A stretch of DNA of 64,000 bases from SAR92 clade bacterium (GTDB taxonomy: Bacteria; Pseudomonadota; Gammaproteobacteria; Pseudomonadales; Porticoccaceae): assembly GCA_014381985.1 (NCBI GenBank), contig JACNKP010000023.1, positions 62,001 through 126,000 on the forward strand. The letters are read 5' to 3'. This document shows, in pieces, positions 1,117-34,433 of this stretch. Every line of letters starts with the position of its first letter. Position 1 is the first letter of the stretch. The notes below the pieces were generated by a model that saw nothing but the letters and a program-made list of their open reading frames with translations, had not been told where the DNA came from and made no database searches. The position numbers and the translations under genes were made by a program.

Positions 1117-1168
1117 AAAATTATCCAGATAGTTGGAGAAATGAATCGTTGTTTTAGTCAATTGAGAT

Positions 1169-2377
1169 TTAAGCTGAATCTGCCACCACACCGCTTGATT
1201 TCAAGGCGGCGATAGCACTAGAGTCCATACCTAAACCTGCAAGAATCTCATCGGTATGAGATGCCACTTCAGGTCCGGGCCACTCTGTGCCGCCAGGTGT
1301 GCCTGCAAGTTTAGGCATAATCGCAGGTATTTTAAGAGCTTCGCCATTAATTTCTACCTGCTCAAATAAACCGCGATAATTAAAATGCTCGTCCGCCATC
1401 ATTTCGGCTGCACTATAAACAGGGCCACAGGGGACACGATTAGCTTCTAGTGTAGTCATCGCCTCTTCCAGCGACTGTGTTTTACACCAGTCACTAAGAA
1501 CTTGGTCTAGTTCGGCTTCATGCACTACACGGCTAGCATTAGTAGCATATTTAGCATCCTCTGCCATGTCCGCCCTTCCTACCGCTTTCATTAGTCGCAT
1601 AAATATGGAATCGCCATTGCCACCGATGACAATAAATTTATCATCAGCACATTTATAGGTGTTGGTTGGGACTATTCCAGTCACGGTTGTGCCTGAAGGT
1701 TGCCTTACTACACCGGCGCCATCGTATTCAGGAATAACGGCCTCAAGAAGATTAAACATTGACTCATAAAGCGCGACATCAACCACTTGACCCCCACTTT
1801 TACCAACTTTGTTTGCCTCATCCTTAGCCCGCAATGCCATCAATATACCGATAACAGCATGTAATCCTGAAACTGTGTCCCCAATACTTAAGTTGGGTCG
1901 CACCGGCGCCTCACCTGGGTATCCATTTACAAAACGAAACCCGCTAATGGCTTCACAAGCTGAGGCAAACCCCGCTTTTTCTGAGTAGGGCCCGGTCTGT
2001 CCATAACCAGAAATACGTGCATAAATGAGGTCAGGGTTATCAGCTTGCAAGCTAACTGGGTCAAGACCCCAAGATTCAAGGACCCCGGGTCGAAAATTCT
2101 CCACGACGACATCGGCCGTTTTTAATAATTCCTTGACGATATCCCGTCCTGCTTCAGTTCTTAAATTTAACGAAATGCATTTTTTGTTACGTCCAAGGCT
2201 ACGCCACCATAGTGATGTGCCGTCTTTAACCTCACGCCAATTGCGAATAGGGTCCCCACCTGGAGGTTCAATCTTAATAACCTCAGCGCCGAAATAACCC
2301 AGCATGCAACCAGCAAATGGGCCCGCGAGTAACTGGCCTAATTCAATAACTCTCAACCCTTCTAATGGTTTACTCAT
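1169..2377 (-). CDS. Family III CoA-transferase (CaiB/BaiF-like)
   Basis: MSKPLEGLRVIELGQLLAGPFAGCMLGYFGAEVIKIEPPGGDPIR, NFRPGVLESWGL, YARISGYGQTGP are typical CaiB/BaiF motifs. Confidence 0.9.
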   Translation of the reverse strand: MSKPLEGLRVIELGQLLAGPFAGCMLGYFGAEVIKIEPPGGDPIRNWREVKDGTSLWWRSLGRNKKCISLNLRTEAGRDIVKELLKTADVVVENFRPGVLESWGLDPVSLQADNPDLIYARISGYGQTGPYSEKAGFASACEAISGFRFVNGYPGEAPVRPNLSIGDTVSGLHAVIGILMALRAKDEANKVGKSGGQVVDVALYESMFNLLEAVIPEYDGAGVVRQPSGTTVTGIVPTNTYKCADDKFIVIGGNGDSIFMRLMKAVGRADMAEDAKYATNASRVVHEAELDQVLSDWCKTQSLEEAMTTLEANRVPCGPVYSAAEMMADEHFNYRGLFEQVEINGEALKIPAIMPKLAGTPGGTEWPGPEVASHTDEILAGLGMDSSAIAALKSSGVVADSA

Positions 2378-2489
2378 AAATCTATTACCTTTGAAAAAAT
2401 GATCCCAATACCACCAGGTGCTGATTATGTCTTATAAACCCAAGTCTAATTTTCACTTCAAGCGCTGAGCGAAACACTTAAGCGTTGCT

Positions 2490-3071
2490 ATGATACGCAA
2501 CTCAATTATGATTGTAACATTGCCGGTAAAAATGGACTTTAATATGTTGTCAAAAATGCTCCGCATTATTGTGTTTTCATCTCTAGTGTTTTTACAATCA
2601 ACGAATGCTCAAACTGCTGAATCAGGCCCAAGTGAGCATCTTGTCGGTAAAGTTAATCTCGCTGAGTTCCAACAGCAACCCCATAAACAGTGGTTTGATC
2701 AACACTATGGCGCCCATACTCTTGATCTGGACATTCTAAAAGAAATTAAGCCCTTGTTAGCCGAGGTCTCGATTACTGTTTTTATGGGCACTTGGTGCCA
2801 TGATAGTCAGAGAGAAGTGCCAGCACTATTAAAGATACTCGATGCCCTCTCTTTTGATGAGACTAAACTGGATATTATTGCTCTGTCTTTTAACAAAGAC
2901 ACACCTAAAAAGATTGAACAATATTTTGATATTAAACGAACTCCCACCATTATTTTTAGTCGGCATCAAAAGGAGATAGGTCGGTTTGTTGAGTATCCCC
3001 AAAAAACACTAGACGAAGATATCCTGGCCATTCTTAAAGACAGCAATTACCGACACTCTTATGCCGATTAA
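2490..3071 (+). CDS. Secreted thioredoxin-fold protein with a monothiol WCHDS site
   Basis: FMGTWCHDSQREVPALLKIL thioredoxin-like active-site region; hydrophobic N-terminus; cis-Pro-like TPTIIF. Confidence 0.7.
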   Translation: MIRNSIMIVTLPVKMDFNMLSKMLRIIVFSSLVFLQSTNAQTAESGPSEHLVGKVNLAEFQQQPHKQWFDQHYGAHTLDLDILKEIKPLLAEVSITVFMGTWCHDSQREVPALLKILDALSFDETKLDIIALSFNKDTPKKIEQYFDIKRTPTIIFSRHQKEIGRFVEYPQKTLDEDILAILKDSNYRHSYAD

Positions 3072-3395
3072 TAAACGGGAACGTTGGCCTCACTTAATTG
3101 TCGTATAAAGATAGCGGCTAAGAGTTCGTTCTTGCATGATTATTAATAGAGTTTGGTGCCATCAATCTTAGTTTCTGTATGATTTAAGAGGGTTACATCA
3201 TAAAAAATGAATCCCTTGGCCTTGTTTCGTAGTATGTTTATAGGTGGAAGTGTTAGTTGGCAGTATTGTATTTTGGAATAAATGGCGTAGAGCTGAGTTA
3301 TCACTTAAATCATTGATACTTAAAGGTTGTCGTTGGAGAAGTAAATGTACAACATGGGTACAAGTAACTTATTAGCGTACAGACATAGTCTCACT

Positions 3396-4601
3396 ATGAT
3401 TAAGGGCTTTCTGTTCTTAGTGTTAATGTTGTTTTCCTTAATCTCTAGAGGCCAGGTCGAGCAGGATCAGACTGACACTATCGAGAGCTATTTAACAGCA
3501 ATCGACGACTTAGAAGCAGAACTTGGTGCCTACTCAACACAGTTGTCAGACTTATACCTAGGCCTTGGAAAATCTTACGCATCAAAAACAGAATATTCCG
3601 ACGCATTAGCCGCGTTTCAGCGTGGGATGCAAATAGAACGAGTTAATTTTGGCCTACACAGCCTATCCCAAACACCCTATCTAACGTCTATAGCGGATAC
3701 CGAGAGTAATCTTGGCAACCAAGAAAAATCATTGAAAGCACTTAACCAGGCCTATCAAATAAGTGTAAAAAACTATGGTGGTACGGACAAACGCATGGTC
3801 CCTGTGATCGATTCCTTGATCGACTGGCATATGAACATCTATCACCAACAACGACCAAAGGTAGGCTATAGCAATCTAGTTATGTCGGAAAAACTGGCCA
3901 ATAACATGAATTTTATTTTAGATGAAAATATCTCTCTTAATCATCCAGAGGGGCCTACTTACTACCGGCGTATCGCGGATCTTCATTTCGTGATTGCTAA
4001 TCATATTACTAAATATGGTGAGCCTAGGGAGACAGGGTTTACTGTATCTAGCGGCTTAGACTCAAGAAGAAGCAGTGAAGTTAGAACCTCGTACCGTCAC
4101 TTTCATCGCGGCAAGACAGCTTTAGAGAAAGTGATCCAATCGAGCATAGAGCAAGAGAACTCAACGCCTTATGATAAAGCAAACGTTATTGCCGATCTTG
4201 GCGACTGGCATTTACTGTTTGGTCAAAAGTTATCTGCTATCAAGACCTATCAACTGGCCGATGAAATATTAGATTTAGATGAAGATCCTGAAGATGCTCG
4301 TCAATCCTTGTTTGGTAAGCCAAAAATCATAGAATTCGGTATAAAGAAGCAGGATCAGGACACTATGCCGAGTGAGAATGAGTCTATGAGTGTGCAAGTC
4401 TCTATGCTTATTTCAGAGGGCGGCGTCGCTTCAGATTTTTATCTGGCCAATGAATCAGACTCTTTAACTGATAATGAAATGAAGCTGTTGAAAAAATATT
4501 TTAGCGGTAAGCGCTTTAGACCTCGTATTGTTGAACGTCAGCCGCAAGAAGCAACCCATATTGTTAATTATGACCGTCCAGCCAAAGGAGTTGAAGGTTG
4601 A
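3396..4601 (+). CDS. Secreted TPR protein, first gene of the putative envelope system
   Basis: ORF 3345..4601; internal ATG gives a signal-peptide-like N-terminus MIKGFLFLVLMLFSLISRGQ; TPR-like helical repeats (LYLGLGKSYASKTEYSDALAAFQRGMQIE). Confidence 0.6.
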   Translation: MIKGFLFLVLMLFSLISRGQVEQDQTDTIESYLTAIDDLEAELGAYSTQLSDLYLGLGKSYASKTEYSDALAAFQRGMQIERVNFGLHSLSQTPYLTSIADTESNLGNQEKSLKALNQAYQISVKNYGGTDKRMVPVIDSLIDWHMNIYHQQRPKVGYSNLVMSEKLANNMNFILDENISLNHPEGPTYYRRIADLHFVIANHITKYGEPRETGFTVSSGLDSRRSSEVRTSYRHFHRGKTALEKVIQSSIEQENSTPYDKANVIADLGDWHLLFGQKLSAIKTYQLADEILDLDEDPEDARQSLFGKPKIIEFGIKKQDQDTMPSENESMSVQVSMLISEGGVASDFYLANESDSLTDNEMKLLKKYFSGKRFRPRIVERQPQEATHIVNYDRPAKGVEG

Positions 4602-5335
4602 AAAAGACAGATTATACCGGCATTTGGAAGGCTGCTAACCGAGGAGTCTTGTTACAAACATTTGTCTTCGCGGCTGTGCTGACGCTACTTACATCTTGCC
4701 AGATGCCCTCGCCGCCTCAATCAAGCGGTTCGTCTGGGTCACCTCCATCGTCTGGATCACCTGGATCACCCGGATCACCTGGATCACCTGGATCACCTGG
4801 ATCACCTGGATCACCTGGATCGCCTGGATCGCCTGGATCGCCTGGATCGCCTGGATCGCCTGGATCGCCTGACGGTGGGGACTCTATTGGGGATCTCGAT
4901 CAATCACTGGATGATTCACTCGACGACTTTGATAGCACTGTCGCCGGTCAAGGATCATCTGACAAACCCGCGCAAATTGACATACTAAGCCCCAGTGGCG
5001 CTAGTAGCATTGAGTCTGATAGCGACCAACGCCCGTATGAAACGGCGGAAAGTATTGCGGAGGGTGATTCTGACATCGAGGAACGAGCGGCAACAGGCCC
5101 TGATTCAGACAGTGATGGTGAAGGCGCTGGTGATGGTGGCGGACAATCTTCAGGCAATAATAGCTCAGAATCTGGTGAAGCTATCGTCGTTCAACCCCTA
5201 CCAGATGATATCGATGACGGCCAAGGGGACGATATTGTTTTGCGCCAAATAAGGGCTGCCGCCACTCAAGAATCTGACCCCGTATTGCGAGAAAAATTGT
5301 GGGATGAATACCGACGAATCAAAGATGGAACCTAA
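4598..5335 (+). CDS. Putative lipoprotein with Gly-Ser-Pro tandem repeat and acidic low-complexity C-terminal half
   Basis: TTG start preceded by AAGGAG; lipobox-like LTLLTSC; (GSP)n tract; 4-bp overlap with the upstream gene. Confidence 0.65.
   Translation: MKKTDYTGIWKAANRGVLLQTFVFAAVLTLLTSCQMPSPPQSSGSSGSPPSSGSPGSPGSPGSPGSPGSPGSPGSPGSPGSPGSPGSPGSPDGGDSIGDLDQSLDDSLDDFDSTVAGQGSSDKPAQIDILSPSGASSIESDSDQRPYETAESIAEGDSDIEERAATGPDSDSDGEGAGDGGGQSSGNNSSESGEAIVVQPLPDDIDDGQGDDIVLRQIRAAATQESDPVLREKLWDEYRRIKDGT
4754..4870 (+). repeat. 13 tandem copies of a 9-bp unit GGATC(A/G)CC(T/C) encoding Gly-Ser-Pro
   Basis: Direct reading: seven units with TCA serine codons followed by six with TCG, in frame with the 4598 CDS. 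Confidence 0.95.
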
Positions 5336-5345
5336 GGGATAACCA

Positions 5346-6584
5346 ATGAAGTTTATGCCTCACCTTTTTACATGCTGTTATTTATCTAGGCGGTTGCCGT
5401 CTCGCCGGTTACTCGTCTCTATAGTGGCGTCTCTGGCATTAATAATTAACGCCCAAAGTACTTTCGCAGCTATCGATAAAGTTACCTCCTCTACGCCTCT
5501 GTCGATTAAAACGCCTTCGCGCCCTATGGCTGAAAGTTCTCTGCTTGATGTGGGAATACCTACACTAAATGACGGCCTTAGCCTAACCGACGAAGATGAC
5601 ACCGTATTCCCTGAAGTTCGTTTTGCTGAAGCAATTTATTTTTCTAATCAACTGGCAAAGGTTATGGAAAAAAGTGGGGCCTGGGGCGCTATTAGAGTCA
5701 CACCTAATGCTCAAGTCATTACTGACGTCTATATTACAGGTACTATTATTCAGTCAGATGGCGAGGCTTTAGAACTGGATGTTGAGGTAAAAGATACGAG
5801 CGGCAAAAAATGGTTTGCCAAGACCTATAAAAAGGTTGTGGGAAAATTAGCTTATGACAGAAAGGCGAAAACAAATATTGGTGATCCCTTCCAGAATGTT
5901 TTCATCCAAATAGCAAATGATGTCCTGACCTATCGAGAGAAATTTTCTGACAAGAAAGCGACTGAGCTGAGGACCATTTCCGAACTACGCTTTGCCCAGT
6001 TATTTTCCCCAGAGGCTTTTAATGAATACATTACACCTGGCCGAAACGGTATCTTGGAAATACAACGGTTACCCGCAGAAAATGACAGCTTGTTGGAGCG
6101 CGTAAAAAAGATAAGAGAACGTGATTACTTGTACATTGATACGATGCAAGATTATTACGATGGGTTCTCCCAGCAGATGCACTTTGCCTACCAAGAGTTC
6201 AGGCATTCCTCTTACGATTCGGTCGTCAAGGCACGGCAACTTAACCGACAAGGCAATCAACGTATTATTGCAGGTATTGGCTCTATTTTAGCGGGTATAT
6301 ACGGTCGAAGTCAGTCTGAAACATCTACCGAAGCCTATGCGAGCTCTGCCACTGCAGCGGCGGGTGGTTTTATCTTAAAATCAGGCCTAGAGAAAAAACA
6401 ACAGTCTGCTGCCTATGATGAAAGTGTCGCTGAAATGGGCTCATCGTTAGAGGCGGAAATTGCGCCTCAAGTGATCGCCTTAGAAGATCGCACCATAACT
6501 CTTACCGGCACGGTGCAAGCGCAGTACACGCAATGGCAGGAGCTTATGCAAAAGATCTACACACAGGAACGAGGCGCCCCCTAA
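5346..6584 (+). CDS. Secreted protein of unknown function
   Basis: 412-aa ORF with signal-like N-terminus (LVSIVASLALIINAQSTFA); no family recognised. Confidence 0.55.
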   Translation: MKFMPHLFTCCYLSRRLPSRRLLVSIVASLALIINAQSTFAAIDKVTSSTPLSIKTPSRPMAESSLLDVGIPTLNDGLSLTDEDDTVFPEVRFAEAIYFSNQLAKVMEKSGAWGAIRVTPNAQVITDVYITGTIIQSDGEALELDVEVKDTSGKKWFAKTYKKVVGKLAYDRKAKTNIGDPFQNVFIQIANDVLTYREKFSDKKATELRTISELRFAQLFSPEAFNEYITPGRNGILEIQRLPAENDSLLERVKKIRERDYLYIDTMQDYYDGFSQQMHFAYQEFRHSSYDSVVKARQLNRQGNQRIIAGIGSILAGIYGRSQSETSTEAYASSATAAAGGFILKSGLEKKQQSAAYDESVAEMGSSLEAEIAPQVIALEDRTITLTGTVQAQYTQWQELMQKIYTQERGAP

Positions 6585-6601
6585 GGCCTGATAGACAATA
6601 A

Positions 6602-8032
6602 ATGACCAATAAACCCCCAGTGAATAATCAAAATAAGACTCAAAAGTTAGTCATCATAACGCTCATCGTCTTAGTTGCGGCCGTTGTCATTGTGCTCCCG
6701 AACTACGTTTCTGAACCTTGGGTTGCGGATGCTAGCCAAACCGATTTTAGTCCGCCTGCGCCCGCAGTTAGTCCCTCTGCTGCTGCCGAAAAAACCAAGT
6801 ATCGTCAAGACGCTCAGTCGCTCTTAGCTGAGATCATCAATATTCGTGATCGGTTAAAAGACCAAGCGGTTGCACGCTGGGGAGACTTACAATTTCGCGT
6901 TGCCTTGCAAGGTGTGGATCAAGGAGATGAACAATATCGCTATGGCGACTATCAAAAGGCAATAGACACTTATCAATTATCTCTAGATCAAATGAAAAAT
7001 CTTGAGTCTGTTGCGCAATACGAACTCGTCGAGGCTAAAAAGATAAGTCTCACAGCGATCGAATCCGCTACTGTGGTCTCTGGTGCTGAGCTTGCTATTA
7101 ATAAGGCTGAACTGGCAATAGCCATAGCCCCCAATGATAAAGAAGCCCAGATATTGGTTAATAGAGCAAGTAAGCTCTCCCAGTTGATTACATTACTGGC
7201 TGAGGGCAGATACCACAGTGAGCAAAACGACTTGGAGTCTGCTAAAGCTGCCTATGAGAAAGCCGCCGCGCTAGACCCCCAACACATTGCCGCCGCGGCC
7301 GAGCTTCTCATCATAAAAAAATCGATCACTGAAGAAACCTTTAGGAGCCATATGAGCGATGGTTTCGTCGCCCTCAATAAAATCGACTTCGAGCAGGCAT
7401 TCGCAGCCTTTAATCGCGCTGGTGTTATTTACCCTAATCACCCAAGTGTACAACAAGCTCTAAATCAAGTGACCTCTGAGCAATCACAGTTGTTAGTAGA
7501 TCAACAAATGATCCAAGCTGACACGCTTGCCCAACAAGAACAATGGCAAGAGGCCTTAGCTATTTATCAGCGACTACTGCTAACCGACAATAGTCTGACA
7601 GAGGCTAAGGTTCGTAAAATTTCGGTCTCAGTGCGCGCTTCTCTTGATAGGCAGATTACCGCCCTTCTCGACGAGCCACTTTCGTTAACTGCATCGCCTG
7701 CTTTTTATAAAGGTAACAATTTACTTACTGATGCCAAAGGGTTTGCAAATCCGGGGCCACGCTTGCGACGCCAAATTGATCAATTAGATAAAGCTCTACG
7801 AGCTTCTCAGATACCGGTAACCGTCATTATTCAATCAGACAATCTCACCGAGATTAGCGTATATAAAGTCGCTAATTTAGGCACCTTGCAACAAGCTTCG
7901 ATTTCATTGAAGCCTGGCCTCTATATTGCTGCAGGACGACGTACTGGCTATCGAGATAGCCGAGTAGAATTTGAAGTTTCTGAGCAATCTCCACCCGGAC
8001 CCATCGTGGTTATTTGTTCAGAGAAAATATAA
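6602..8032 (+). CDS. Membrane-anchored periplasmic TPR protein
   Basis: N-terminal TM KLVIITLIVLVAAVVIVLPNYV; TPR-like repeats (AEGRYHSEQNDLESAKAAYEKAAALDPQHIAA, ALNKIDFEQAFAAFNRAGVIYPNHP). Confidence 0.7.
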   Translation: MTNKPPVNNQNKTQKLVIITLIVLVAAVVIVLPNYVSEPWVADASQTDFSPPAPAVSPSAAAEKTKYRQDAQSLLAEIINIRDRLKDQAVARWGDLQFRVALQGVDQGDEQYRYGDYQKAIDTYQLSLDQMKNLESVAQYELVEAKKISLTAIESATVVSGAELAINKAELAIAIAPNDKEAQILVNRASKLSQLITLLAEGRYHSEQNDLESAKAAYEKAAALDPQHIAAAAELLIIKKSITEETFRSHMSDGFVALNKIDFEQAFAAFNRAGVIYPNHPSVQQALNQVTSEQSQLLVDQQMIQADTLAQQEQWQEALAIYQRLLLTDNSLTEAKVRKISVSVRASLDRQITALLDEPLSLTASPAFYKGNNLLTDAKGFANPGPRLRRQIDQLDKALRASQIPVTVIIQSDNLTEISVYKVANLGTLQQASISLKPGLYIAAGRRTGYRDSRVEFEVSEQSPPGPIVVICSEKI

Positions 8033-8184
8033 GACTAAAGTACTCGGAAGCCTTCGGACCCTATCGCTTAGTGACTGTTACAAACAAAAGCTGGCATGTG
8101 AAACCTGTTTATTGCGTATACTTTAAATACCAAGAGTCGACCTTCTCTCCACAGGAACGTTGGTCTAACTAAGAACAATAAAAT

Positions 8185-10260
8185 ATGACGGATCAAGACA
8201 ATAAAAATAAGCCTATCAGTAGTGTCGATTTCAGTCCGATAGAGACGGGTTTGGAGCAAAAATCTGCTCCTATCTCCTTAGGAATGAAGATCCTAACGGG
8301 TCTCATGACAGCTGCCATTGTTATTATGGGCTACCTTTACTCAGCCAAAGCGGTTATTTTCAACGTTGATCCTATGGATGCAGATATTGAGATTAAAGGG
8401 CTATCATTTCACATTGGTGACAACTATTTACTGCTAAAAGGTGATTATGCCATTACGGCGACTCATCCTGGTTACTACCCTTTGAATTACCCACTGATGG
8501 TGAGCGACGAAGACAATCAAGAGGTCGCATTGGCACTGAGCCCACTTCCCGGCAATTTAGAGGTCACTTCTGAACTATCAACTATAAATGTCACTATGGA
8601 TGGGGCAACTCTAGCAACCGTTCCAGGATTACTCACGGGTATAAATCGTGGTCGTCACCGTTTTACGTTTAGCAAGCGTCGCTACTTTCCTCTTGTCAAA
8701 GAAGTTGATATTCAAGGGTTGGATATCACACAACAGATCAGCCTTGTATTGCAGCCAGCCTGGGGGCAGATGCTATTCACATCCAAACCGATAGGCGCTG
8801 CGGTGAGCATAGATGGAGAGATTGTAGGCAAAACACCGATGACAATAGAGGTTTTAGAAACCGGCAGTGAACTCACATTAGATTATCCTGGCTACAAAAC
8901 CTTCACCAAAGCCGTTACCCTCAAAGCGGGTACTACCGCTGAACACCCCCTAGTTTTATTAGATGTCTCAGATGGCACGCTCCAGATTGCAACGATGCCC
9001 GCGGGAGCAACCGTCACCTTAGATAAAATATTTTTAGGGCTTTCACCATTAAAGGTAGATGTCCCGCCCTTCAACGACCAAATCCTCGAGTTTTTCCTTG
9101 ATGGGTATTTAAAAGCCAGTAGGACGGTCAAGGCCGAACCGGAAAAGGTCTCGGTCATTGATCTTAGGTTAAAACCCAATATTGGCAGTATTTCTGTGAG
9201 GGTTAGCCCTGAGAATGCAAAAATAACAGTGAATGGACGCTCACTAGGGGCAGGCAGTCAGACACTCTCTTTACCTGCAAAACCGCATACATTAGAAGTG
9301 AGCATAGCCGGTTACGAAACGCAGATCGTGCAGATCACTCCACGCCCAGACCAACAGCAAGACCTAAATATTAAGCTACTAACACTACAGCAAGCCTACT
9401 GGTCATCACGGCCCTCGGTCATCAAGAGTACGGTGGGTTCTGAATTAAGGTTATTTCAACCTGACCAATCCTTTACTCTTGGCGCCCCCCGCAGACAACC
9501 AGGGCGTCGTGCTAACGAAGTTGAACGGTGGGTCCGATTAGAGCGTCCCTTTTATTTAGGTTCTAAAGAAATTAGCAATGCTCAGTTTCGCCTCTGGAAG
9601 GAGGAACATAGTTCAGGTGCCATAAGAGGCATGAGCCTAGATATGCGAGATCAACCCGCGGTCAAACTAAGTTGGGAAGACGCTGCCTTATTTTGTAATT
9701 GGCTCAGTAAGAAGGAAGGTTTGCCAAGCTTCTACCAAATTCAAGACGGAGAAGTCACAGGCTTTGATTGGCAGTCCCACGGTTATCGACTCCCCACTGA
9801 GGCCGAATGGGCTTGGGCCGCCAAGATTAATAATCAGGGCGACACTATCGTATTTCCTTGGGAAAATGGCCTCTACCCACCAACCAGTGCCGTCGCTAAT
9901 TACGCCGATAAAAGTGCGTTGGGTTTTCTTCCTTTTACCATCGCAAACTACAATGATAGCTATGCAGTATCCGCCAATATTGGTAGCTTTAGTCCCAATA
10001 TGAAAAGTCTCTACAATATGAGCGGTAATGTCGCAGAATGGGTGAATGATTATTATGAGGTACGACTTCATCGAGGAGAGCCTATAGTAGACCCAAGAGG
10101 AGCAGAGTCAGGGAGCAGGCACGTGATTCGCGGAGCGAGCTGGGCATTGGGTTCTCGCACAGACCTTCGCTTAAGTTTTCGTGAGGCTGGTAGTGATGGG
10201 CGAGTCGATGTAGGCTTTAGATTAGCGCGCTATGTTGATCAGCCAGGAGTCACACCATGA
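8185..10260 (+). CDS. Membrane-anchored protein with PEGA repeats and a C-terminal SUMF1/FGE-like domain
   Basis: N-terminal TM; at least four PEGA-like repeats (e.g. FTSKPIGAAVSIDGEIVGKTPMTIEV); SUMF1 motifs YRLPTEAEWAWAA, NMSGNVAEWVNDYY, RGASWALGS, VGFRLARY. Confidence 0.88.
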   Translation: MTDQDNKNKPISSVDFSPIETGLEQKSAPISLGMKILTGLMTAAIVIMGYLYSAKAVIFNVDPMDADIEIKGLSFHIGDNYLLLKGDYAITATHPGYYPLNYPLMVSDEDNQEVALALSPLPGNLEVTSELSTINVTMDGATLATVPGLLTGINRGRHRFTFSKRRYFPLVKEVDIQGLDITQQISLVLQPAWGQMLFTSKPIGAAVSIDGEIVGKTPMTIEVLETGSELTLDYPGYKTFTKAVTLKAGTTAEHPLVLLDVSDGTLQIATMPAGATVTLDKIFLGLSPLKVDVPPFNDQILEFFLDGYLKASRTVKAEPEKVSVIDLRLKPNIGSISVRVSPENAKITVNGRSLGAGSQTLSLPAKPHTLEVSIAGYETQIVQITPRPDQQQDLNIKLLTLQQAYWSSRPSVIKSTVGSELRLFQPDQSFTLGAPRRQPGRRANEVERWVRLERPFYLGSKEISNAQFRLWKEEHSSGAIRGMSLDMRDQPAVKLSWEDAALFCNWLSKKEGLPSFYQIQDGEVTGFDWQSHGYRLPTEAEWAWAAKINNQGDTIVFPWENGLYPPTSAVANYADKSALGFLPFTIANYNDSYAVSANIGSFSPNMKSLYNMSGNVAEWVNDYYEVRLHRGEPIVDPRGAESGSRHVIRGASWALGSRTDLRLSFREAGSDGRVDVGFRLARYVDQPGVTP

Positions 10261-10475
10261 GACTAGCATTAGCACTCTTAATGTTGCCTTTGTTGGGTTT
10301 TAGCCAGCAACCCACTGAACCCTCCGACCCCTTGGTGGTTGTCGATTCAGCAGCGACAACTCTAGAGGTGCCGGATAAAGAGGTATCGTCAGATGAAGAC
10401 CAGGAAGCTGCTGACTTTAAACCGACTGAGGAGATTTCAGAAGATTTCCCAATCCCACTTCCTTATGATATTTAA
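10257..10475 (+). CDS. Small secreted acidic protein
   Basis: 72-aa ORF with signal-like start MRLALALLMLPLLGFSQ; overlaps the upstream stop by 4 bp (ATGA). Confidence 0.5.
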   Translation: MRLALALLMLPLLGFSQQPTEPSDPLVVVDSAATTLEVPDKEVSSDEDQEAADFKPTEEISEDFPIPLPYDI

Positions 10476-10522
10476 CCCCAAGAAGATAAATTTCACAGCC
10501 ACGAGAAATAAGGGAATAGCCA

Positions 10523-11329
10523 ATGAAAAGCCCGACAGATAAAACAACCAACGAAATGTTTTTCCAGCTAATTGCATTGCTGTTGTCGATTATTATTATC
10601 CATACTATTTTCGTTACCGTGGTCAGACCCAATGCTGAGAGCACGATACAACGTCACGCAGAAATGGCTGCAGCGGGAGAAGAGTATGAAGTGCCACGGT
10701 CTTTCTTTATTGTGATCAAAGATTTAGAACAGGAGTCCTGTTTTATTTTAATGTTTTGGGCTCTGTCTATTATGGGCTATAAAACTCGCACTGCTGTTCG
10801 AGAAAAAGCGATGCTTAATTTACCGCTTGTGAGTATTGCCGAGGGCACCAGGGTATTGCCAGATGATGCAGGTCAACTGGCACGGCCGTTGCAGTCCCTG
10901 CCGTCAACACAGCGCGGTTATCTTCTACCTCGCGCTCTTCAAACCGCGCTCTCTCGATTTGAAGTGACCGATAGTGTGCAATTTGCGGCTGAGGCGGTCA
11001 GTAATGTTTGTGATACGGAAAATGACCGGCTTGACTCAGAGTTATCAATGGTTCGTTATATCACCTGGGCCATACCGTCTATCGGCTTCATCGGCACGGT
11101 ACGTGGAATCGGTGCTGCACTAGGGCAGGCCCATGAGGCCATGCAAGGTAATATCGCTGGCGTCACCAGCAGCCTAGGAGTGGCCTTTAACTCAACGTTT
11201 ATTGCTCTTCTAATCAGTATGGTTGTGATGTTCTATATGCACCAGCTGCAGTTGATACAGGAGCGTCTGGTGCTAGATTCCCAATCCTATTGCGAAAACA
11301 ATTTACTTCGTTTTTTAAAAGCTAAATAA
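10523..11329 (+). CDS. MotA/TolQ/ExbB-like proton channel family protein
   Basis: About four TM segments; characteristic C-terminal pair ITWAIPSIGFIGTVRGIGAAL ... GVTSSLGVAFNSTFIALLISMVVMF. Confidence 0.85.
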   Translation: MKSPTDKTTNEMFFQLIALLLSIIIIHTIFVTVVRPNAESTIQRHAEMAAAGEEYEVPRSFFIVIKDLEQESCFILMFWALSIMGYKTRTAVREKAMLNLPLVSIAEGTRVLPDDAGQLARPLQSLPSTQRGYLLPRALQTALSRFEVTDSVQFAAEAVSNVCDTENDRLDSELSMVRYITWAIPSIGFIGTVRGIGAALGQAHEAMQGNIAGVTSSLGVAFNSTFIALLISMVVMFYMHQLQLIQERLVLDSQSYCENNLLRFLKAK

Positions 11330-11343
11330 GTATCGGATCACAG

Positions 11344-12633
11344 ATGTCACTAGCTGTTTTAGAACTCAACGATCAGGCGTTGCTCATTCATACTGAGCAG
11401 GGCCAAAGCATCAGTGAGCCCGGTTTTGCCCAATTAACAAGCAAAGGCATTGAAACCGGTGAAGTCGCTCGAAGCATAGCGTGGCGGTCACCCCAGTCGA
11501 GTTTTAATCAGTATTGGCGTCAACTTAATCAACTTCCACTGCCTAGCAACCAACGCTGGGCACGACATAACGCTGATATCGCATTCGCTCAAATTGAGCA
11601 GCTCTTAAATGCTACCGCTGCGCCGGAAAAATTAATTCTTAGTGTTCCTGGTAGTTTCTCCGACGAACAAATGTCATTAGTAACAGGATTAATCGACGCA
11701 TCTTCAAGTCAACTGTACGCCGTAATCGATAGTGCTCTAGCCGCTGGATTGGATTGTCAGAATCAGACTTGGATCGTAGAATTACAGCTTCATCAAACAG
11801 TTGTGAGTCTTATCCAACCTCAAGATAAGGGTACTCAGGGTTCAATTGAAGTCGTGCAACAAGAGCTTATTCCCGATCTAGGCATCATGACAATTTACAA
11901 CTCAGTTGCCCGACATATCAGTAACAGCTTAGTCACCGATTACCGCTATGACCCCTTACACAATTCCGAGGGCGAGCAAACTATTTATGACCAAATACCC
12001 ACTTGGCTATCGACTTTAACAGTTAAGCCGGAGGTCACCATTAGCATAAGTTCCCCCAAGGGAGAGCTTCCCTTGGTATTACGTAAACATAAAATAGAAG
12101 AATTAATTGAAGGTCGGTTGGCTAAACTGACTGAAATTCTTGAAAGCACTGAAAAAAATGATGTGGTTTTTACGCATAGTGGAGCCATTATTGGCCGGCT
12201 AGTATCTCGCTTTGCAACTGCGCGGCTACTTAGTGCTGATCAGGGATGCCGAAATTGTTTTTCAGTCCAACAGGAAATCGCTTTAGAAAGTGAGCAATTG
12301 CATCGTATTAGATCATTAAAGACGGGCTTATTATTAGACGGAATAACGACCAATCAAACCCATCAGTCAGCCTATGCAACTCACTTGCTATATAACAATC
12401 AGGCATGGCCGCTGGCAGCAGCGATTAGCATTTATCTAAAGAATGATCAGCTTTCTTTAAAGTCCGGGGCAGATAAAGACGCGACTCTAGCGCTCATGAT
12501 TACAGATTCAGAATTAGGTGTACTTTACCAGCAACCCGGCAACGAGGTACTACTCCCTAAGAGCTCTCAGCCCGGTGGTTCAATTGTCATTGCAGGCCAT
12601 AAAGTTAAATTAATCGAGGTTAATAATGGCTAG
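11344..12633 (+). CDS. Hsp70/actin-fold (ASKHA)-like protein
   Basis: SLAVLELNDQALLIHTEQG start and overall Hsp70-like organisation (LILSVPGSFSDEQ, VIDSALAAGLD); remote similarity only. Confidence 0.5.
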   Translation: MSLAVLELNDQALLIHTEQGQSISEPGFAQLTSKGIETGEVARSIAWRSPQSSFNQYWRQLNQLPLPSNQRWARHNADIAFAQIEQLLNATAAPEKLILSVPGSFSDEQMSLVTGLIDASSSQLYAVIDSALAAGLDCQNQTWIVELQLHQTVVSLIQPQDKGTQGSIEVVQQELIPDLGIMTIYNSVARHISNSLVTDYRYDPLHNSEGEQTIYDQIPTWLSTLTVKPEVTISISSPKGELPLVLRKHKIEELIEGRLAKLTEILESTEKNDVVFTHSGAIIGRLVSRFATARLLSADQGCRNCFSVQQEIALESEQLHRIRSLKTGLLLDGITTNQTHQSAYATHLLYNNQAWPLAAAISIYLKNDQLSLKSGADKDATLALMITDSELGVLYQQPGNEVLLPKSSQPGGSIVIAGHKVKLIEVNNG

Positions 12634-13681
12634 AAAACGGCGCAATATCGCCTTTAGCTTGTCCTTTCTCGATATTATGGCCTGCGGTTTTGGTGCTGTG
12701 ACACTCCTATTTTTGATCCTACGCCACAACGCCACTGAAGTAATAACCCCAGATGAAAGCCTCGCAGCTGAGGTTGATCTATTACAAATGGATATTCAGC
12801 AAGCCACGGAGGAAAGAGCTGTATTACTCAATAGTTTAGATAAGATTAAATTAGACCTTGTGCAAGCACAGGGCTTGTCCGCAAGAGTCATTACAGAGCT
12901 GGAGGAGCAAGAGAATAGCATCCAAGAAGACCCTAATAATATGGACAAGCTTCGCCAGCAAGTTGAACAGTTAGAGGAAGAAACTGCTCAGATGGAAGAG
13001 ATTGAATTTGGTGACACAGTACGAAAATTTAGTGGCGATGGAGTCAGGCAATATCTTACCGGCCTCAAATTAGGCGGCGAGCGGGTACTTATCTTAGTGG
13101 ACGGCTCTGCCAGTATGTTAGCCGATACAGTGGTAAATGCACTGCGAAGACGAAATATGGACGACGACCAAAAACAACAATCAGTGAAATGGCAGTGGAC
13201 AATGCGTACGGTAGAATGGTTACTGGCACAGTTGCCGCCAAGTAGTCGCTATCAAGTCTATATTTTTAATGCTGAAGCAACTCCAGTTAGCCCAGATACA
13301 GATGGTATATGGCTTGATGCTGCAGACTCGTTGGCCCTTGAAACTTCAGTGCGCGACCTTAGCAATCATGCCCCTAACTCCGGCACCAGTTTAGTCAATG
13401 CGTTTAGTGTCTTAGCCGAGTTTGATGATCAGCCTGATAATATTTTTCTACTCACAGACGGTCTGCCAACAATGAGTGAAACCGCCCCCAAAAAATATAT
13501 GGTTACTGGCGGTCAAAGACGTAAGCATTTTAACGTTGCGCTGACGAAGATCCCTGCGGGTATTTCGGTTAATACTATTTTATTTCCCATGGAAGGTGAC
13601 CCTGAGGCCGCGGCACTTTATTGGCAGTTAGCTTTAGATACTGAAGGTGCGTTTATAGCGCCATCAAGAGATTGGCCATAA
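12626..13681 (+). CDS. VWA-domain protein with N-terminal TM anchor (VWA-1)
   Basis: TM SFLDIMACGFGAVTLLFLIL; coiled-coil; MIDAS ILVDGSAS, NSGTS, LLTDGLP. Confidence 0.85.
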   Translation: MARKRRNIAFSLSFLDIMACGFGAVTLLFLILRHNATEVITPDESLAAEVDLLQMDIQQATEERAVLLNSLDKIKLDLVQAQGLSARVITELEEQENSIQEDPNNMDKLRQQVEQLEEETAQMEEIEFGDTVRKFSGDGVRQYLTGLKLGGERVLILVDGSASMLADTVVNALRRRNMDDDQKQQSVKWQWTMRTVEWLLAQLPPSSRYQVYIFNAEATPVSPDTDGIWLDAADSLALETSVRDLSNHAPNSGTSLVNAFSVLAEFDDQPDNIFLLTDGLPTMSETAPKKYMVTGGQRRKHFNVALTKIPAGISVNTILFPMEGDPEAAALYWQLALDTEGAFIAPSRDWP

Positions 13682-14670
13682 TGAGAAAACAACGCCGAGA
13701 GTTGCAAGAAGCCAGCATTTCCTTTCTAGATGTCATTAGCTGTGGTTTTGGCGCTATCGTGCTGTTGTTAGTCATCGCCAAAGTGGGTGATCCTTCGGCT
13801 CTAGAAGATGCGGAGAAAAAGTTACTCGGGTCAGTCAAAAGTCATCAAGAGCGCTTATTTGAAATAAGGGGTGAATCGGTCATTTTGGATCAGCGTTTAC
13901 AATCCCGTAAACAGCAACTTTCCGAACTTTCCGAACGCGTTGCCCGATTGAAGGAAAAACTAGCCAGTGTGGCTAAACAGTCTGACCAACTGTCGCAATC
14001 CAAAATCAGAGAAAGAGAGCAATTGCAGCTTGTGCTGCAGGTGTTAACCGAAGAGATGCAAAGACTTCTTGGGCCTGAATTTCAAAAGAAGAACAAACTC
14101 GTAGGCGGCATCCCAGCAGACAGTGACTACATTATATTTGTGATTGACACCTCCGGCAGCATGCAAAGTGCTGCCTGGCAAAAAGTTCAAATTGAGATGC
14201 TCAATATCCTTGACGTGTACCCTGAAGTTAAGGGCATTCAAGTTTTAAATGATATGGGCCAATATATGTTTAGCGCCTATAAAAACCAATGGATTCCAGA
14301 TAGCCCTAAAATGAGAACTAATATTACAACCAAACTGGCGACCTGGGCACCTTTTAGTAACTCAAGTCCCGTAGAAGGAATAGAGAGTGCCATAAAAGTG
14401 TTTTATAAACCTGGCAGACGCATTAGTATTTATACCTTAGGTGATGACTTTCAAGGAAGTTCGATCAGAAGAGTTGTCAAAGAAATTGATCGACTGAATA
14501 AAGCCAATCGCGGTAGTGATAGACTGGTTCGTATACACGCGATTGGATTTCCAGTTCATTTAAGGCCCGGGGTTTCACCAAGTACCTCCGCGATGCGCTT
14601 TGCTGCTTTAATGAGAGAATTAAGTTACAACAATGGTGGGACCTTTATCGGTTTAAATAGTCTGCAATAA
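13681..14670 (+). CDS. VWA-domain protein with N-terminal TM anchor (VWA-2)
   Basis: TM SFLDVISCGFGAIVLLLVIA; coiled-coil; MIDAS FVIDTSGSM; TAATG overlap with the VWA-1 stop. Confidence 0.85.
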   Translation: MRKQRRELQEASISFLDVISCGFGAIVLLLVIAKVGDPSALEDAEKKLLGSVKSHQERLFEIRGESVILDQRLQSRKQQLSELSERVARLKEKLASVAKQSDQLSQSKIREREQLQLVLQVLTEEMQRLLGPEFQKKNKLVGGIPADSDYIIFVIDTSGSMQSAAWQKVQIEMLNILDVYPEVKGIQVLNDMGQYMFSAYKNQWIPDSPKMRTNITTKLATWAPFSNSSPVEGIESAIKVFYKPGRRISIYTLGDDFQGSSIRRVVKEIDRLNKANRGSDRLVRIHAIGFPVHLRPGVSPSTSAMRFAALMRELSYNNGGTFIGLNSLQ

Positions 14671-14699
14671 ACTAAAAATAACACGGGTGTTGTTTTAAT

Positions 14700-15320
14700 A
14701 TGGGAGCATTAGATATGAAGAAAATAGGCGGCCTAATTCTAATCGTGCTTTTAGCGGGTTGCAGTTCGTCGGCATCTGTAAAAATAACGAGCTCATTCCC
14801 ATCAGTTTTGTCCGAACCTAAGCCCATCGATGCATCCATTCTTATCGAAGATAGCTTCGCCACCTACGTCGGCACACCTAACAAAAATACTACAATCGAT
14901 ATAGGTGCAAGCCAAGTTAATTTGCTCAATAGCGCCTTCTCTGGGCTGTTCGACAATGTTGATTTTGTGACATCTCTAGACCAAGTCACAGCAGAAACCG
15001 ATCTGATAATTACACCCTCTGTTATTGAGGTTCAGCTATCAACCCCTTCTGACAACTATCTCAACGTATTTGAAGTATGGATTAAATATAATCTGGATAT
15101 TCAAGCAAAAGATGGCGCTCTAATAACCAATTGGTTTATGCCCGCCTATGGGAAAACGCCAGATTCATTTATGGCAGACAAAGAGAAGGCCATTGAGCTG
15201 GCAACAATAATCGCATTACGTGATGCCGGGGCCAAACTGATGCTCGATTTTTATCGTATCCCCGCTATAAACGACTGGTTGTCGAGGCAAAATATTAATC
15301 AGGAGTCGCAGTCATTATGA
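14700..15320 (+). CDS. Putative lipoprotein of unknown function
   Basis: Lipobox-like IVLLAGCSSSAS; 206 aa. Confidence 0.65.
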   Translation: MGALDMKKIGGLILIVLLAGCSSSASVKITSSFPSVLSEPKPIDASILIEDSFATYVGTPNKNTTIDIGASQVNLLNSAFSGLFDNVDFVTSLDQVTAETDLIITPSVIEVQLSTPSDNYLNVFEVWIKYNLDIQAKDGALITNWFMPAYGKTPDSFMADKEKAIELATIIALRDAGAKLMLDFYRIPAINDWLSRQNINQESQSL

Positions 15321-15985
15321 CAAAGACGATAGGTAAGCTTGGCGGCCAACTAGGGCTCCTTATAATGCTTCTTAGCGGTTGCTCAGCGACCACAACAATC
15401 GACGAGTACCGCCCCACAGATCAACCTATTGTTTTAAGTGGCGATGAAAAAGTGGTTATTCTGGGTCGGCGAGATGCAGGCCATTATGAAACAGATCGAG
15501 AATTCATTGAATGTGTAAGCGATGAGGTTACGAGCGGCGGCATTAAGGTACTTCCCGAACAGCAGTTTATTGATGCTATCTATCCATGGTTCGAACCACG
15601 AACAGCCCCCAAAGGACTGCCACGTTTAAAGCGGTTAATACAGCAGAATAACGTCAAGGCTAAAATAGATTCACTGTCTATACGTTATCTGGTGTGGTTG
15701 GATGGATCTACCGAAACAACGGGTAAAGGTGGCTCTATGAGTTGCGCTATTGGCCCTGGCGGTGGCGGATGCTTTGGCTTTGCTCAATGGGATAAACTCT
15801 CTGTTTACGAGGCAACAGTCTGGGATCTTGATGAGCTCGTTGAGAAAGGAAAATTACGCGTAGATTCTGAAGGCACCTCCTATTTAATTGGTGTTGTCGC
15901 TCCTATACCACTGTTAACCCCAGTAAAAAATGATGCCTGTGGCAGCCTAGGCAATCAGCTTAAGTTATTTTTCTCGATTAAATAG
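15317..15985 (+). CDS. Putative lipoprotein of unknown function with Gly-rich Cys segment
   Basis: Lipobox-like IMLLSGCSATT; SCAIGPGGGGCFGFAQW; 4-bp overlap with the upstream gene. Confidence 0.65.
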   Translation: MTKTIGKLGGQLGLLIMLLSGCSATTTIDEYRPTDQPIVLSGDEKVVILGRRDAGHYETDREFIECVSDEVTSGGIKVLPEQQFIDAIYPWFEPRTAPKGLPRLKRLIQQNNVKAKIDSLSIRYLVWLDGSTETTGKGGSMSCAIGPGGGGCFGFAQWDKLSVYEATVWDLDELVEKGKLRVDSEGTSYLIGVVAPIPLLTPVKNDACGSLGNQLKLFFSIK

Positions 15986-15993
15986 ATAACATA

Positions 15994-17427
15994 ATGAAAC
16001 TAATCTTCAGGTTACACCCACCCCTGACAATTCTAGTCACTGCGCTGCTGGCGTTATGTTTAACATATTCCTCGATAAGTCAGGCAAAAGTGACTGGAGC
16101 TGATATCTATGAAACAACCCTAAAAAGCACTCCCATTTATAAGGATCCAGCACTCGAAGCTTATATAAAGTCGCTGGGAGAAGAAATCGTTGCGGTGTCT
16201 GAAATGGCCGGCGAGAAATTCACCTTTACCTTACTTGATGATGAGGCCCTCAACGCTTTTGCAACGAGAGATAACTATATTTATGTCAATCGTGGACTTC
16301 TTAATTATGTCAGCAATGAGGCTCAGTTAGTGTCAGTTCTGGCTCACGAAGTCGGTCATGTAACCCGTGGTCACGTCACTGGCCAAGAAGAGCGAATGAC
16401 CGGCGCGAAAATTCTTTCCACCTTGGCTGCGGTACTGTCCAATAGCAATGAAGTTTACGAGGCTACTATGGCATATGCCAATTCCATGATTCAAAGCCAT
16501 GGCCGTCGCAATGAACTGGAGGCTGATGAGGCTGGGGCTGAATATATGGCAAAGCTCGGTTATGACCCCACTGAAATGTTAAGCATGCTGTCGATCATGA
16601 AGGACAATGAGTCGTCGCAAAAAAAGCGCGCACAGGGCCAAGGCGTATCTAAACCAACCTATCATGGTGTTTTTTCTTCACACCCTCGAAATGATGCGCG
16701 CCTGCGGACGGTTGTGACCAAAGCCAAATCGCTTAAATCTGATAATCAGCGCGGCAATGGGGCAGACGTCTATCGAGGCCTTACTGATGGTCTGGTATGG
16801 GGGGTTAACTTCCTCGCAAAAACTACTGCACCTGAACGATATTCCGACATGAACCTAAAGATTCGTCTCAATTTCCCCAAAGACTGGACACTAACAGAAG
16901 ATAATAACAAACGGTCAGTTTCAGCCTCACCAGAGGGAGGCGCAGCAACCTTAAGCCTGCAACCAATAGCTCGAACGTCACAGAGCCCTGAGGAATATTT
17001 GTACAACTATCTCAGCGTTCCTATTCTCGCCGAAGGTGAATCAATTTCACCGGCGCGGTTAAAAGGATTTACCGGAATACTAAATACTGACAACCCAAAA
17101 ACTTCGACACGGATAGCGGTAATTTATTACAAATTAAATGCCTATATTTTAAAAGGCGAGGTTCTAAATTCAGATGACTTCGAGGAGTTTGATCCGCTTT
17201 TCTTGACCGCCATTAATACATTTCGTCCCATTTCTCGAGCAGAGATAGCCGGACAAAAACCAAAAGTAGTAAAATATGTTAGGGCGACACAAGCGACCAC
17301 CTATGATGTCTTAGCTAAATCATTAGGTATCAGTGTCGCTGATATAGATACCCTACGTATTATTAATGGGCATTACCCCAGTGGAGAACCCACGGCTGGT
17401 GATTGGCTTAAAATTTTTGAACAATAA
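15994..17427 (+). CDS. Secreted M48-family zinc metalloprotease
   Basis: Signal-like N-terminus; VLAHEVGHVTRGH zinc motif and downstream NELEADEAGAEYM glutamate motif; LysM-like C-terminus. Confidence 0.88.
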   Translation: MKLIFRLHPPLTILVTALLALCLTYSSISQAKVTGADIYETTLKSTPIYKDPALEAYIKSLGEEIVAVSEMAGEKFTFTLLDDEALNAFATRDNYIYVNRGLLNYVSNEAQLVSVLAHEVGHVTRGHVTGQEERMTGAKILSTLAAVLSNSNEVYEATMAYANSMIQSHGRRNELEADEAGAEYMAKLGYDPTEMLSMLSIMKDNESSQKKRAQGQGVSKPTYHGVFSSHPRNDARLRTVVTKAKSLKSDNQRGNGADVYRGLTDGLVWGVNFLAKTTAPERYSDMNLKIRLNFPKDWTLTEDNNKRSVSASPEGGAATLSLQPIARTSQSPEEYLYNYLSVPILAEGESISPARLKGFTGILNTDNPKTSTRIAVIYYKLNAYILKGEVLNSDDFEEFDPLFLTAINTFRPISRAEIAGQKPKVVKYVRATQATTYDVLAKSLGISVADIDTLRIINGHYPSGEPTAGDWLKIFEQ

Positions 17428-17433
17428 TGTCTG

Positions 17434-18174
17434 TTGCAATTCCATGTGCCGAGCGAAATGAAAACCATGATTCAAAAAATATCGTTACTACTGGTACTTG
17501 CCACGATTGGTATTGGGTTCTACTGGCTACTAATACCCGCACAGCAAGTTGATGAGACTGATAGCGACAACAGTGAACAGTACAGGCCTAATGTTGCCTC
17601 AATTAATCAGCAGGTTGCTGACAAGTTCCTCAAAACTCTAACCGTAGATGCTACTGATATTGGCCCTGATATCGACCCTCAACCAAAGGCCTCATCTATG
17701 AAAGCAAAACTATCAGGCGCTATTAAGGCTATTACGACCAATCAAAATCCAACAGCTAAGCAGCTCAATGCCTTCTATGAGGCCCATAAATCTGATTACA
17801 CAGAAACGGCACAATTCACCTTTGTTTACCGCGTTTTTTACACGGCTAAGTATGGCGGCCAAGCCACTGCCACTGCAAAAAAGGCCCTTGACGATAGAAT
17901 AGCTGAGGGTGTACCTCTTTTACGAGACACCATGCTACCCCAAGACGTTTACATGCGCGCTGACTCTGTTGAAATTGATGAGGTATTCGGTGTTGGTTTT
18001 GCTGACAAACTAGACGCTTTAAGTAATGCGACAGCCTTACCCTGTTGGGCCGGCCCAATTAGTTCTAAGTCCGGCGCGCATCTGGTATGCGTAAAGGCTT
18101 ATCAACCTGGCCGTACTCCAGTATTGTCGGAAATTGAAAATGAAGTTATCAATGATTGGCGTTTATCGCTATGA
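17434..18174 (+). CDS. Membrane-anchored parvulin-type peptidylprolyl isomerase-like protein
   Basis: N-terminal TM; FYEAHKSDYTETAQFTFVYRVF and WAGPISSKSGAHLVCVKAYQPGRTPVLSEIENEVINDW resemble the PpiC/SurA family. Confidence 0.65.
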   Translation: MQFHVPSEMKTMIQKISLLLVLATIGIGFYWLLIPAQQVDETDSDNSEQYRPNVASINQQVADKFLKTLTVDATDIGPDIDPQPKASSMKAKLSGAIKAITTNQNPTAKQLNAFYEAHKSDYTETAQFTFVYRVFYTAKYGGQATATAKKALDDRIAEGVPLLRDTMLPQDVYMRADSVEIDEVFGVGFADKLDALSNATALPCWAGPISSKSGAHLVCVKAYQPGRTPVLSEIENEVINDWRLSL

Positions 18175-31435: not shown

Positions 31436-32419
31436 TTAATCTATTTTTTTATAAGACTCAACCAGTCTTTGGGCCGCAATGGTGGCCGGCAACGTTCCTT
31501 CTAATACTGCAGTCTCCAATTTAGGGACTAACTTTTTAATCTCAGGATTAGCCTTTAAGTCTGCGATAAGAGATTCAGCCGTTTCAGACCACATCCAAGC
31601 CTTGGACTGTTGCGCACGAAGTTTCGCTAATTGCCCTTTTTCAGACAGCGCAAAATTGAACTCAGTTACCTTAGCCCAAACAGCTTCAACCCCTTGATTT
31701 TTCAATGCAGAACATGTCATGACTGGCGGTTGCCAGTGGTCAAATCGTGATTTCATAAAATGAATGGCAGACCTATAGTCAGATTGTGTTTGAGCGGCCG
31801 CTGCAGTTTGGTGACCATCCGCTTTATTAACCAACACTAAATCGGCCAACTCCATAATACCGCGTTTAATTCCCTGTAATTCGTCGCCTCCAGAGGGAGA
31901 CAACAGCAACAAAAACATATCTGTCATATCCGCCACGGCTGTCTCTGACTGTCCGACCCCAACAGTTTCGACTAAGACAACATCAAATCCGGCTGCTTCA
32001 CAGATCAGCATGGACTCTCGGGTTCGCCGTGTCACACCGCCTAAGGTTTTTCCTGCAGGTGAAGGTCTCACAAACGCTTGCTCTGCAAACGCTAAAGTCT
32101 CCATCCTCGTTTTATCACCAAGAATAGATCCGCCAGTGACGGCAGACGATGGATCTACTGCCAATACCGCCACACTGTGTCCCTGCTCTATAATATGATT
32201 GCCAAACACTTCAATAAATGTTGATTTACCTGTCCCTGGCGCCCCAGAGATACCCACACGGACAGAATCACCCGAATAAGGCATTAGGGCTTCAAGTAAG
32301 CTGGACGCCTGTTCTCTGTGATCTTTTCTTGTCGACTCAACCAAGGTAATCGCTTTTGCTAAGGCACGGCGATCGCCGGCTCGAACCTGCTCTGCTAAAG
32401 ATCGGGATTTATCTGTCAT
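31436..32419 (-). CDS. meaB: Methylmalonyl-CoA mutase-associated GTPase MeaB/ArgK
   Basis: RVGISGAPGTGKSTFIEVFG, VLAVDPSSAVTGGSILGDKTRM, VETVGVGQSE, LVNKADG. Confidence 0.93.
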   Translation of the reverse strand: MTDKSRSLAEQVRAGDRRALAKAITLVESTRKDHREQASSLLEALMPYSGDSVRVGISGAPGTGKSTFIEVFGNHIIEQGHSVAVLAVDPSSAVTGGSILGDKTRMETLAFAEQAFVRPSPAGKTLGGVTRRTRESMLICEAAGFDVVLVETVGVGQSETAVADMTDMFLLLLSPSGGDELQGIKRGIMELADLVLVNKADGHQTAAAAQTQSDYRSAIHFMKSRFDHWQPPVMTCSALKNQGVEAVWAKVTEFNFALSEKGQLAKLRAQQSKAWMWSETAESLIADLKANPEIKKLVPKLETAVLEGTLPATIAAQRLVESYKKID

Positions 32420-32426
32420 TCAGCCA

Positions 32427-34409: not shown

Positions 34410-34433
34410 AGCTCTGTTCTCATCAATGAGGTT

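Follow-up and report, generated by a model that had tools for sequence, protein, structure and literature searches.

A conserved gene cassette in a SAR92 clade bacterium as a candidate proton-driven trans-envelope machine

What kind of machine is encoded by a block of 14 tightly packed plus-strand genes in a SAR92/Porticoccaceae bacterium? The block lies at positions 3345-18174 of a 64,000-nucleotide stretch of contig JACNKP010000023.1 (hereafter the window), in a genome of 2.5 Mb whose nearest named relatives are Porticoccaceae metagenome-assembled genomes (MAGs) and SAR92 isolates, including HTCC2207. An original prediction, made from the letters of this DNA, had proposed that the genes form one membrane-anchored, multi-protein assembly of the cell envelope, and both the synteny and the motor residues described below support it. 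We consider it likely that the locus encodes a trans-envelope machine driven by the proton motive force, in which a heterodimer of two VWA proteins (VWA1 and VWA2) would be the axle of a 5:2 motor.

Gene order and spread of the cassette

Thirteen of the 14 genes (g1 to g13) are open reading frames (ORFs) of at least 200 amino acids, and the remaining one (g5b) is a signal-peptide-like ORF of 72 codons that overlaps the stop of the preceding PEGA/formylglycine-generating enzyme (FGE) gene, g5, by four bases (Table 1). From g1 to g13, the distances between consecutive genes are -4, 10, 17, 152, -4, 47, 14, -8, -10, 29, -4, 8 and 6 bases. Scans of the block detected 14 terminator-like sites (14.8 expected) and 28 promoter-like sites (27.4 expected), that is, no excess of either over chance. 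The predicted arrangement of 14 co-directional genes with overlaps or short gaps (-10 to 152 bases) and no strong internal terminator was thus borne out.

When 85,462 species genomes were scanned, at least 577 candidate matches to VWA2-like sequence were obtained, which indicates that the cassette is common. The 13 larger proteins were then sought by profile in the 80 best named loci of these at least 577 matches, a choice that is biased to close relatives (VWA2 identity of 48-98%). In all 80 loci the cassette genes present were found on one strand and in identical order, each neighbouring pair, where present, being directly adjacent, so that the co-occurrence in other genomes on which the prediction depended was indeed observed. 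Among these loci are Porticoccus, Microbulbifer, Sessilibacter, Halieaceae, Pseudohongiella and Pseudoalteromonas denitrificans, together with one MAG of the Arenicellaceae and others that carry the labels Lysobacterales and Xanthomonadales; Pseudoalteromonas and an isolate of the Alteromonadales also yielded relatives. When genomes were sampled across the window's order, the cassette was present in 69 of 295 (30 of 119 genera); a phylum-wide sample contained it in 16 of 399 genomes, 13 of the 16 belonging to one family of another class, which might, judging from its gene content and genome size, be the Zetaproteobacteria. Such grouping is far beyond chance, and the 14-gene block is a conserved unit.

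The minimal cassette, found in the family of the other class and in a diverged second copy, consists of g2, g3, g4, g5, g6, VWA1 (g8) and VWA2 (g9), with g2 scored only where the contig extends that far. The second copy (locus L021 on G034:C24, positions 989-8489, near the contig end) has the order g3-g4-g5-g6-VWA1-VWA2 without g7 and g10-g13, and its genome, which is of the same genus as the window, has a standard cassette as well. At least five partner genes are locked to the TolQ/ExbB/MotA-type channel gene g6. The genes for g7 (Hsp70 fold), g10, g11 and g12 (M48) are additions across Gammaproteobacteria that lie outside the minimal cassette, and g1 has a narrower distribution. The M48 protease and the parvulin, listed among the parts in the original prediction, are add-ons and do not belong to the core: g12 occurs in 71 of the 80 named loci and is absent from minimal cassettes, and the parvulin g13 was found in 18 of the 80, mainly close to the window's lineage. 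Moreover, g7 looks dispensable, since it is missing or unrecognised in loci L025, L068, L125 and L133 with the remaining cassette intact. The cassette occurs both in genomes that have MotB and in genomes that lack it and, thus, is not tied to flagella.

The channel subunit and the two VWA proteins

Against PF01618, g6 scored 49.7 bits, above the cut-off of 22.9. Its Thr192 and Thr225 align with the two conserved pore Thr of the genome's own TolQ/ExbB-type proteins, and both are kept in 84 of 84 homologues. Each VWA protein starts with a short basic N-terminus followed by a single membrane helix with the pattern SFLD(I/V)(M/I)xCGFGA, and the two N-termini are mutually homologous (hhalign probability 99.5). 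The Asp within this helix is invariant, both in VWA1 (Asp16, 91/91) and in VWA2 (Asp20, 93/93; numbered from the TTG at 13672). VWA domains scored below threshold in Pfam (20.9 and 16.3 bits, cut-off 27); however, the metal-ion-dependent adhesion site (MIDAS) motifs are intact in both proteins, with D159/S161/S163 of VWA1 conserved in 92/92 and D278 in 93/93 sequences and the DTSGS motif of VWA2 invariant, so the predicted VWA twins could be upheld. As judged from these alignments, g6 and both VWA proteins carry conserved residues of a 5:2 motor.

A Pfam search with the VWA N-termini alone gave no match, and PDB sequence searches returned mainly coiled coils for VWA1 and nothing for g6. The positively charged cytosolic N-termini and the single membrane helix would place the VWA heads in the periplasm. 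No ExbD/TolR gene was detected among the 14; three ExbD homologues occur in the genome, all on other contigs, and MotB_plug had no match in the host genome. Considering the lack of ExbD/TolR in the cassette together with the invariant helix Asp, the VWA pair may fill the place of ExbD/TolR/MotB. Adjacency of g6, g7, VWA1 and VWA2 was seen in named loci, and a heterologous VWA pair is present in 80/80. Membrane anchoring of the VWA proteins, as predicted, was supported, but their link to the channel had been missed: beyond being anchored, they resemble a MotB/ExbD-type counterpart of g6.

A motor family of this kind, TolQ-like plus paired TPH-vWA, has been proposed computationally (PMC12204202; Mol Biol Evol 2025, Fig. 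4c,d). The published description gives membrane-tethered vWA proteins, mostly in heterologous pairs, which co-occur tightly with tolQ-like genes in the absence of tolR/exbD; AlphaFold 3 (AF3) models of such pairs have the Asp surrounded by the ring of Thr residues, and the function of TPH-vWA motors is stated there as unknown, with no phenotype (PMC12204202). As far as that description goes, our locus is the same in having a TolQ-like gene beside two heterologous VWA genes, conserved helix Asp and channel Thr, and no tolR/exbD/motB. It is different in that the text of PMC12204202 deals with the motor core only and mentions neither PEGA, sulfatase/SUMF (FGE), Hsp70-fold, lipoprotein or small-protein partners, nor TolB-D1-like, TonB_C-like or tether-like ones, although partners may be drawn in its Fig. 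4c or supplement. Further literature text searches found no study of the full cassette. Calling the system undescribed was therefore half right: it does not apply to the channel and twin-VWA core, and it seems to apply, as far as the text of PMC12204202 goes, to the remaining partners. As a prediction, the motor core is already known; what seems new is the complete architecture, along with the two small tether-like proteins.

Partners of the motor core and neighbouring genes

The TPR, PEGA (four copies)/SUMF1, MotA_ExbB, M48 and parvulin parts named in the original prediction were all recovered by Pfam, and the features of the 14 genes are listed in Table 1.

Table 1. Genes of the cassette, with window coordinates and predicted features
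Gene	Coordinates	Strand	Product and main features
g1	3345..4601	+	Exported TPR protein, TonB_C-like C-terminal domain; TPR_12 E 3.7e-7
g2	4598..5335	+	Predicted lipoprotein, long low-complexity linker, conserved C-terminal motif
g3	5346..6584	+	Envelope protein, lipoprotein in most homologues; TolB-D1/LptE-like fold plus 76-residue helix
g4	6602..8032	+	Inner-membrane-anchored periplasmic TPR protein; TPR_2 E 1.3e-10; N-terminal membrane helix 16-34
g5	8185..10260	+	Membrane helix, four PEGA and FGE/SUMF1-fold domain; PEGA E 2.5e-42, FGE-sulfatase E 6.4e-34
g5b	10257..10475	+	Exported protein of 72 amino acids, fixed C-terminus ...SEDxxxxxPxDI-COOH
g6	10523..11329	+	MotA/TolQ/ExbB-type channel subunit; MotA_ExbB E 3.9e-13; Thr192, Thr225
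g7	11344..12633	+	Hsp70 (ASKHA) fold, nucleotide-binding domain plus beta domain, degenerate phosphate motifs, predicted cytosolic
g8 (VWA1)	12626..13681	+	Membrane helix with Asp16, coiled coil, VWA domain, intact MIDAS
g9 (VWA2)	13672..14670	+	Membrane helix with Asp20, coiled coil, VWA domain
g10	14700..15320	+	Predicted outer-membrane lipoprotein; invariant lipobox Cys, +2 residue mostly Ser
g11	15317..15985	+	Predicted outer-membrane lipoprotein; invariant lipobox Cys22
g12	15994..17427	+	M48 metalloprotease, intact HExxH; Peptidase_M48 E 9.2e-32
g13	17434..18174	+	Membrane-anchored parvulin-type peptidyl-prolyl isomerase, accessory; Rotamase_2 E 1.4e-7

Two small exported proteins have constant ends. 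The fixed C-terminus of g5b occurs in 73 of the 81 loci that have g5 and g6, the middle of the protein being variable, and a short form in the other class ends in ...SFPVDI; since the exported chain is disordered but its free end is fixed, this end may be a docking peptide. Similarly, g2 (lipobox in 53 of 71 homologues) has a Ser/Gly/Pro/Gln-rich linker whose (GSP)n repeat varies strongly between species in length and composition, and its C-terminal 35 residues are constant in spite of this variation. The g2 motif, DIPxGxDDDVVARQIREAA..DPxLREKLWEEYRKYK, is common to the cassettes of the other class.

In g5, Cys501 is the sole conserved Cys of the FGE domain, and the domain thus lacks the catalytic Cys pair of formylglycine-generating enzymes. 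The C-terminus of g1 matched a TonB profile (hhalign probability 85.6, controls at most 0.4) with a P value of 5.6e-6 that is rough, since the profile had seven rows with at least one in the wrong frame; PF03544 was found at E of about 2e-4 in three g1 homologues. The AlphaFold model of g3 (predicted local distance difference test, pLDDT, 83) shows an alpha/beta domain, for which the top Foldseek matches were LptE and TolB domain 1 (E 2e-3 to 5e-2, probability 0.85-1.00), before its long helix; PDB sequence searches for g3 found nothing. No match was found for g10 in Pfam, NCBIfam or PDB, or for g11 in Pfam.

Although g7 has no ASKHA match in Pfam, its AlphaFold model (pLDDT 92) agrees with the ASKHA part of the prediction, matching DnaK in Foldseek (E 6e-17, TM-score 0.58-0.67) and also Ssz1. 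At the places of the GIDLGTT- and DLGGGT-type phosphate motifs, located by eye, g7 has VLELNDQAL and VELQLHQTV, and because of this degeneration it is probably a poor ATPase. Residues H107, E108 and H111 of g12 are conserved.

Downstream, the block is bordered by trp genes (trpB, trpA) on the opposite strand. Upstream lies a CoA-transferase-like gene and, in this species, a thioredoxin-like gene in between. The latter, encoding an exported protein at 2490-3071, was rejected as a member of the cassette because it is not kept beside g1 in most relatives, being next to it only in the nearest ones. Elsewhere in the window, we noticed, at 24292-27582 and 31436-38137 (both minus strand), a fused B12-binding/MeaB/mutase protein of IcmF-like layout with propionyl-CoA carboxylase and methylmalonyl-CoA mutase genes nearby, and an ordinary flavin mononucleotide (FMN) riboswitch (51893-52046, plus strand) upstream of an ORF at 52194.

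Possible workings and alternative explanations

If the locus encodes a proton-driven envelope motor, g6 would form a pentamer in the inner membrane, and the Asp helices of one VWA1 and one VWA2 would pass through the pore of this pentamer. The resulting heterodimeric axle would stand in for ExbD/TolR/MotB. Protons flowing through g6 would make the axle turn or stroke, and the coiled coils would take the MIDAS-bearing heads into the periplasm, toward the outer membrane. A collar or stalk may be provided by g4 and the presumably non-catalytic g5, both anchored in the inner membrane; g3, g10 and g11 may receive the force on the outer-membrane side, and g2 and g5b could be flexible lines whose C-terminal peptides dock on the machine. 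In addition, g1 might serve as a soluble coupler and g7 as a scaffold or regulator in the cytosol, with the M48 protease, plus the parvulin in this clade, serving assembly. By analogy with Tol and Ton, the work done would most likely be to exert force on a target in the outer membrane or at the surface, and not to transport ions as such; Tol-like envelope tethering or Ton-like transport would be the nearest analogies for the target. In this scheme we infer the stoichiometry and the rotation, the places of the proteins, the passing of force to the outer membrane, and the purpose.

More tentatively, the cassette may represent a separate class of trans-envelope machine, having a TolQ-type pentamer with a VWA heterodimer as its axle, dedicated core partners and a job apart from Tol, Ton and flagella. 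Its dedicated core would comprise the PEGA/FGE-fold, TPR and TolB-D1-like proteins and the two disordered exported proteins with fixed docking peptides, and it would be present in Gammaproteobacteria and at least one other bacterial class alongside Tol, Ton and flagella.

Several points weigh against the proposed motor. The structure models are of single chains, and a complex of g6 with the VWA pair is therefore what we infer. Hidden Markov model (HMM-HMM) comparison of the VWA helices with ExbD was not significant (probabilities 13 and 1.2, Asp residues unaligned); a weak match is expected for one helix, yet homology to ExbD is unproven, and the MotB half of the comparison was uninformative since the MotB set was reduced to one sequence. 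The likeness of g3 to TolB is one of fold, the HMM-HMM comparison of its N-domain with TolB being not significant, and it is from composition and motif that g2 and g5b would be tethers. At the genus level, the VWA pair is absent from several genomes of 1.2-1.4 Mb and, thus, is non-essential in these relatives.

A specialised Ton/Tol-like system for uptake or outer-membrane maintenance, in which the channel powers a transporter of the outer membrane, or the transfer of lipids or proteins, and the VWA pair acts like TonB/TolA, is the alternative that survives best, although we regard it as unlikely. The TonB_C-like end of g1, the TolB/LptE-like fold of g3 and the marine heterotrophic hosts agree with it, and the cassette shares with Tol-Pal a TolQ-type channel, a TPR protein and outer-membrane lipoproteins, and with Ton (ExbBD-TonB) the channel type. 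However, it contains no TonB-dependent receptor, no TolR, TolA or Pal homologue and no TolB beta-propeller, and g1, as a soluble TPR protein, does not have the membrane helix position of TonB. The host also has further ExbBD sets and canonical Tol genes of its own, with TolQ, TolR and TolB grouped on contig C28. In addition, the VWA helix is axle-like, unlike the side-binding SHLS type described in PMC12204202.

It is improbable that the genes make up not one machine but an operon for envelope quality control or lipoprotein biogenesis (Hsp70-fold protein, M48, parvulin, lipoproteins) together with an ion channel. That g7, g10, g11, g12 and g13 are add-ons fits this explanation; without them, however, the minimal cassette is a motor with periplasmic partners, and the motor residues are invariant. 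A gliding or type IX secretion system (T9SS) motor for motility or secretion, with the g5 FGE fold corresponding to PorK/GldK of the GldLM motor ring, has a slightly smaller chance. The g5 FGE domain does match GldK (E 1.9e-24), in GldKLMN an FGE-fold protein likewise stands beside a proton-driven inner-membrane motor, and the VWA heads could bind surface adhesins. On the other hand, the score of 86.7 bits is far below the curated cut-off of 350 and reflects the common FGE fold, g5 is membrane-anchored with PEGA domains, no GldL, GldM, GldN, Spr or secretion-signal genes occur among the 14, and no conserved secreted cargo gene lies beside the cassette.

A Zorya-type anti-phage system (ZorAB motor plus effectors) is very improbable: like MotAB/ZorAB, the cassette has a MotA-type channel and a single-helix partner bearing an Asp, and g6 matches ZorA weakly (E 0.024-0.026), but the partner ends in a VWA domain instead of an OmpA-like peptidoglycan domain, there is no ZorC/ZorD-type effector and no PADLOC match for the other genes, and a mobile defence island would not be expected to keep a fixed chromosomal place by the trp genes within the genus and a constant set of 12-14 genes. 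The claim that the locus matches none of the named secretion, Tol/Ton, gliding, Zorya or type VI secretion systems is supported, and it is no flagellar stator either.

To our knowledge, few proton-driven motors span the inner to the outer membrane, namely flagellar stators, Tol, Ton, Agl, Gld and Zorya. The cassette would use VWA domains where other such motors use peptidoglycan- or receptor-binding domains. It is common, has a fixed parts list and may constitute an uncharacterised envelope machine, and its invariant Asp pair, MIDAS sites and two fixed C-terminal peptides would make the mechanism testable in cultured hosts, Microbulbifer and Pseudoalteromonas denitrificans among them.

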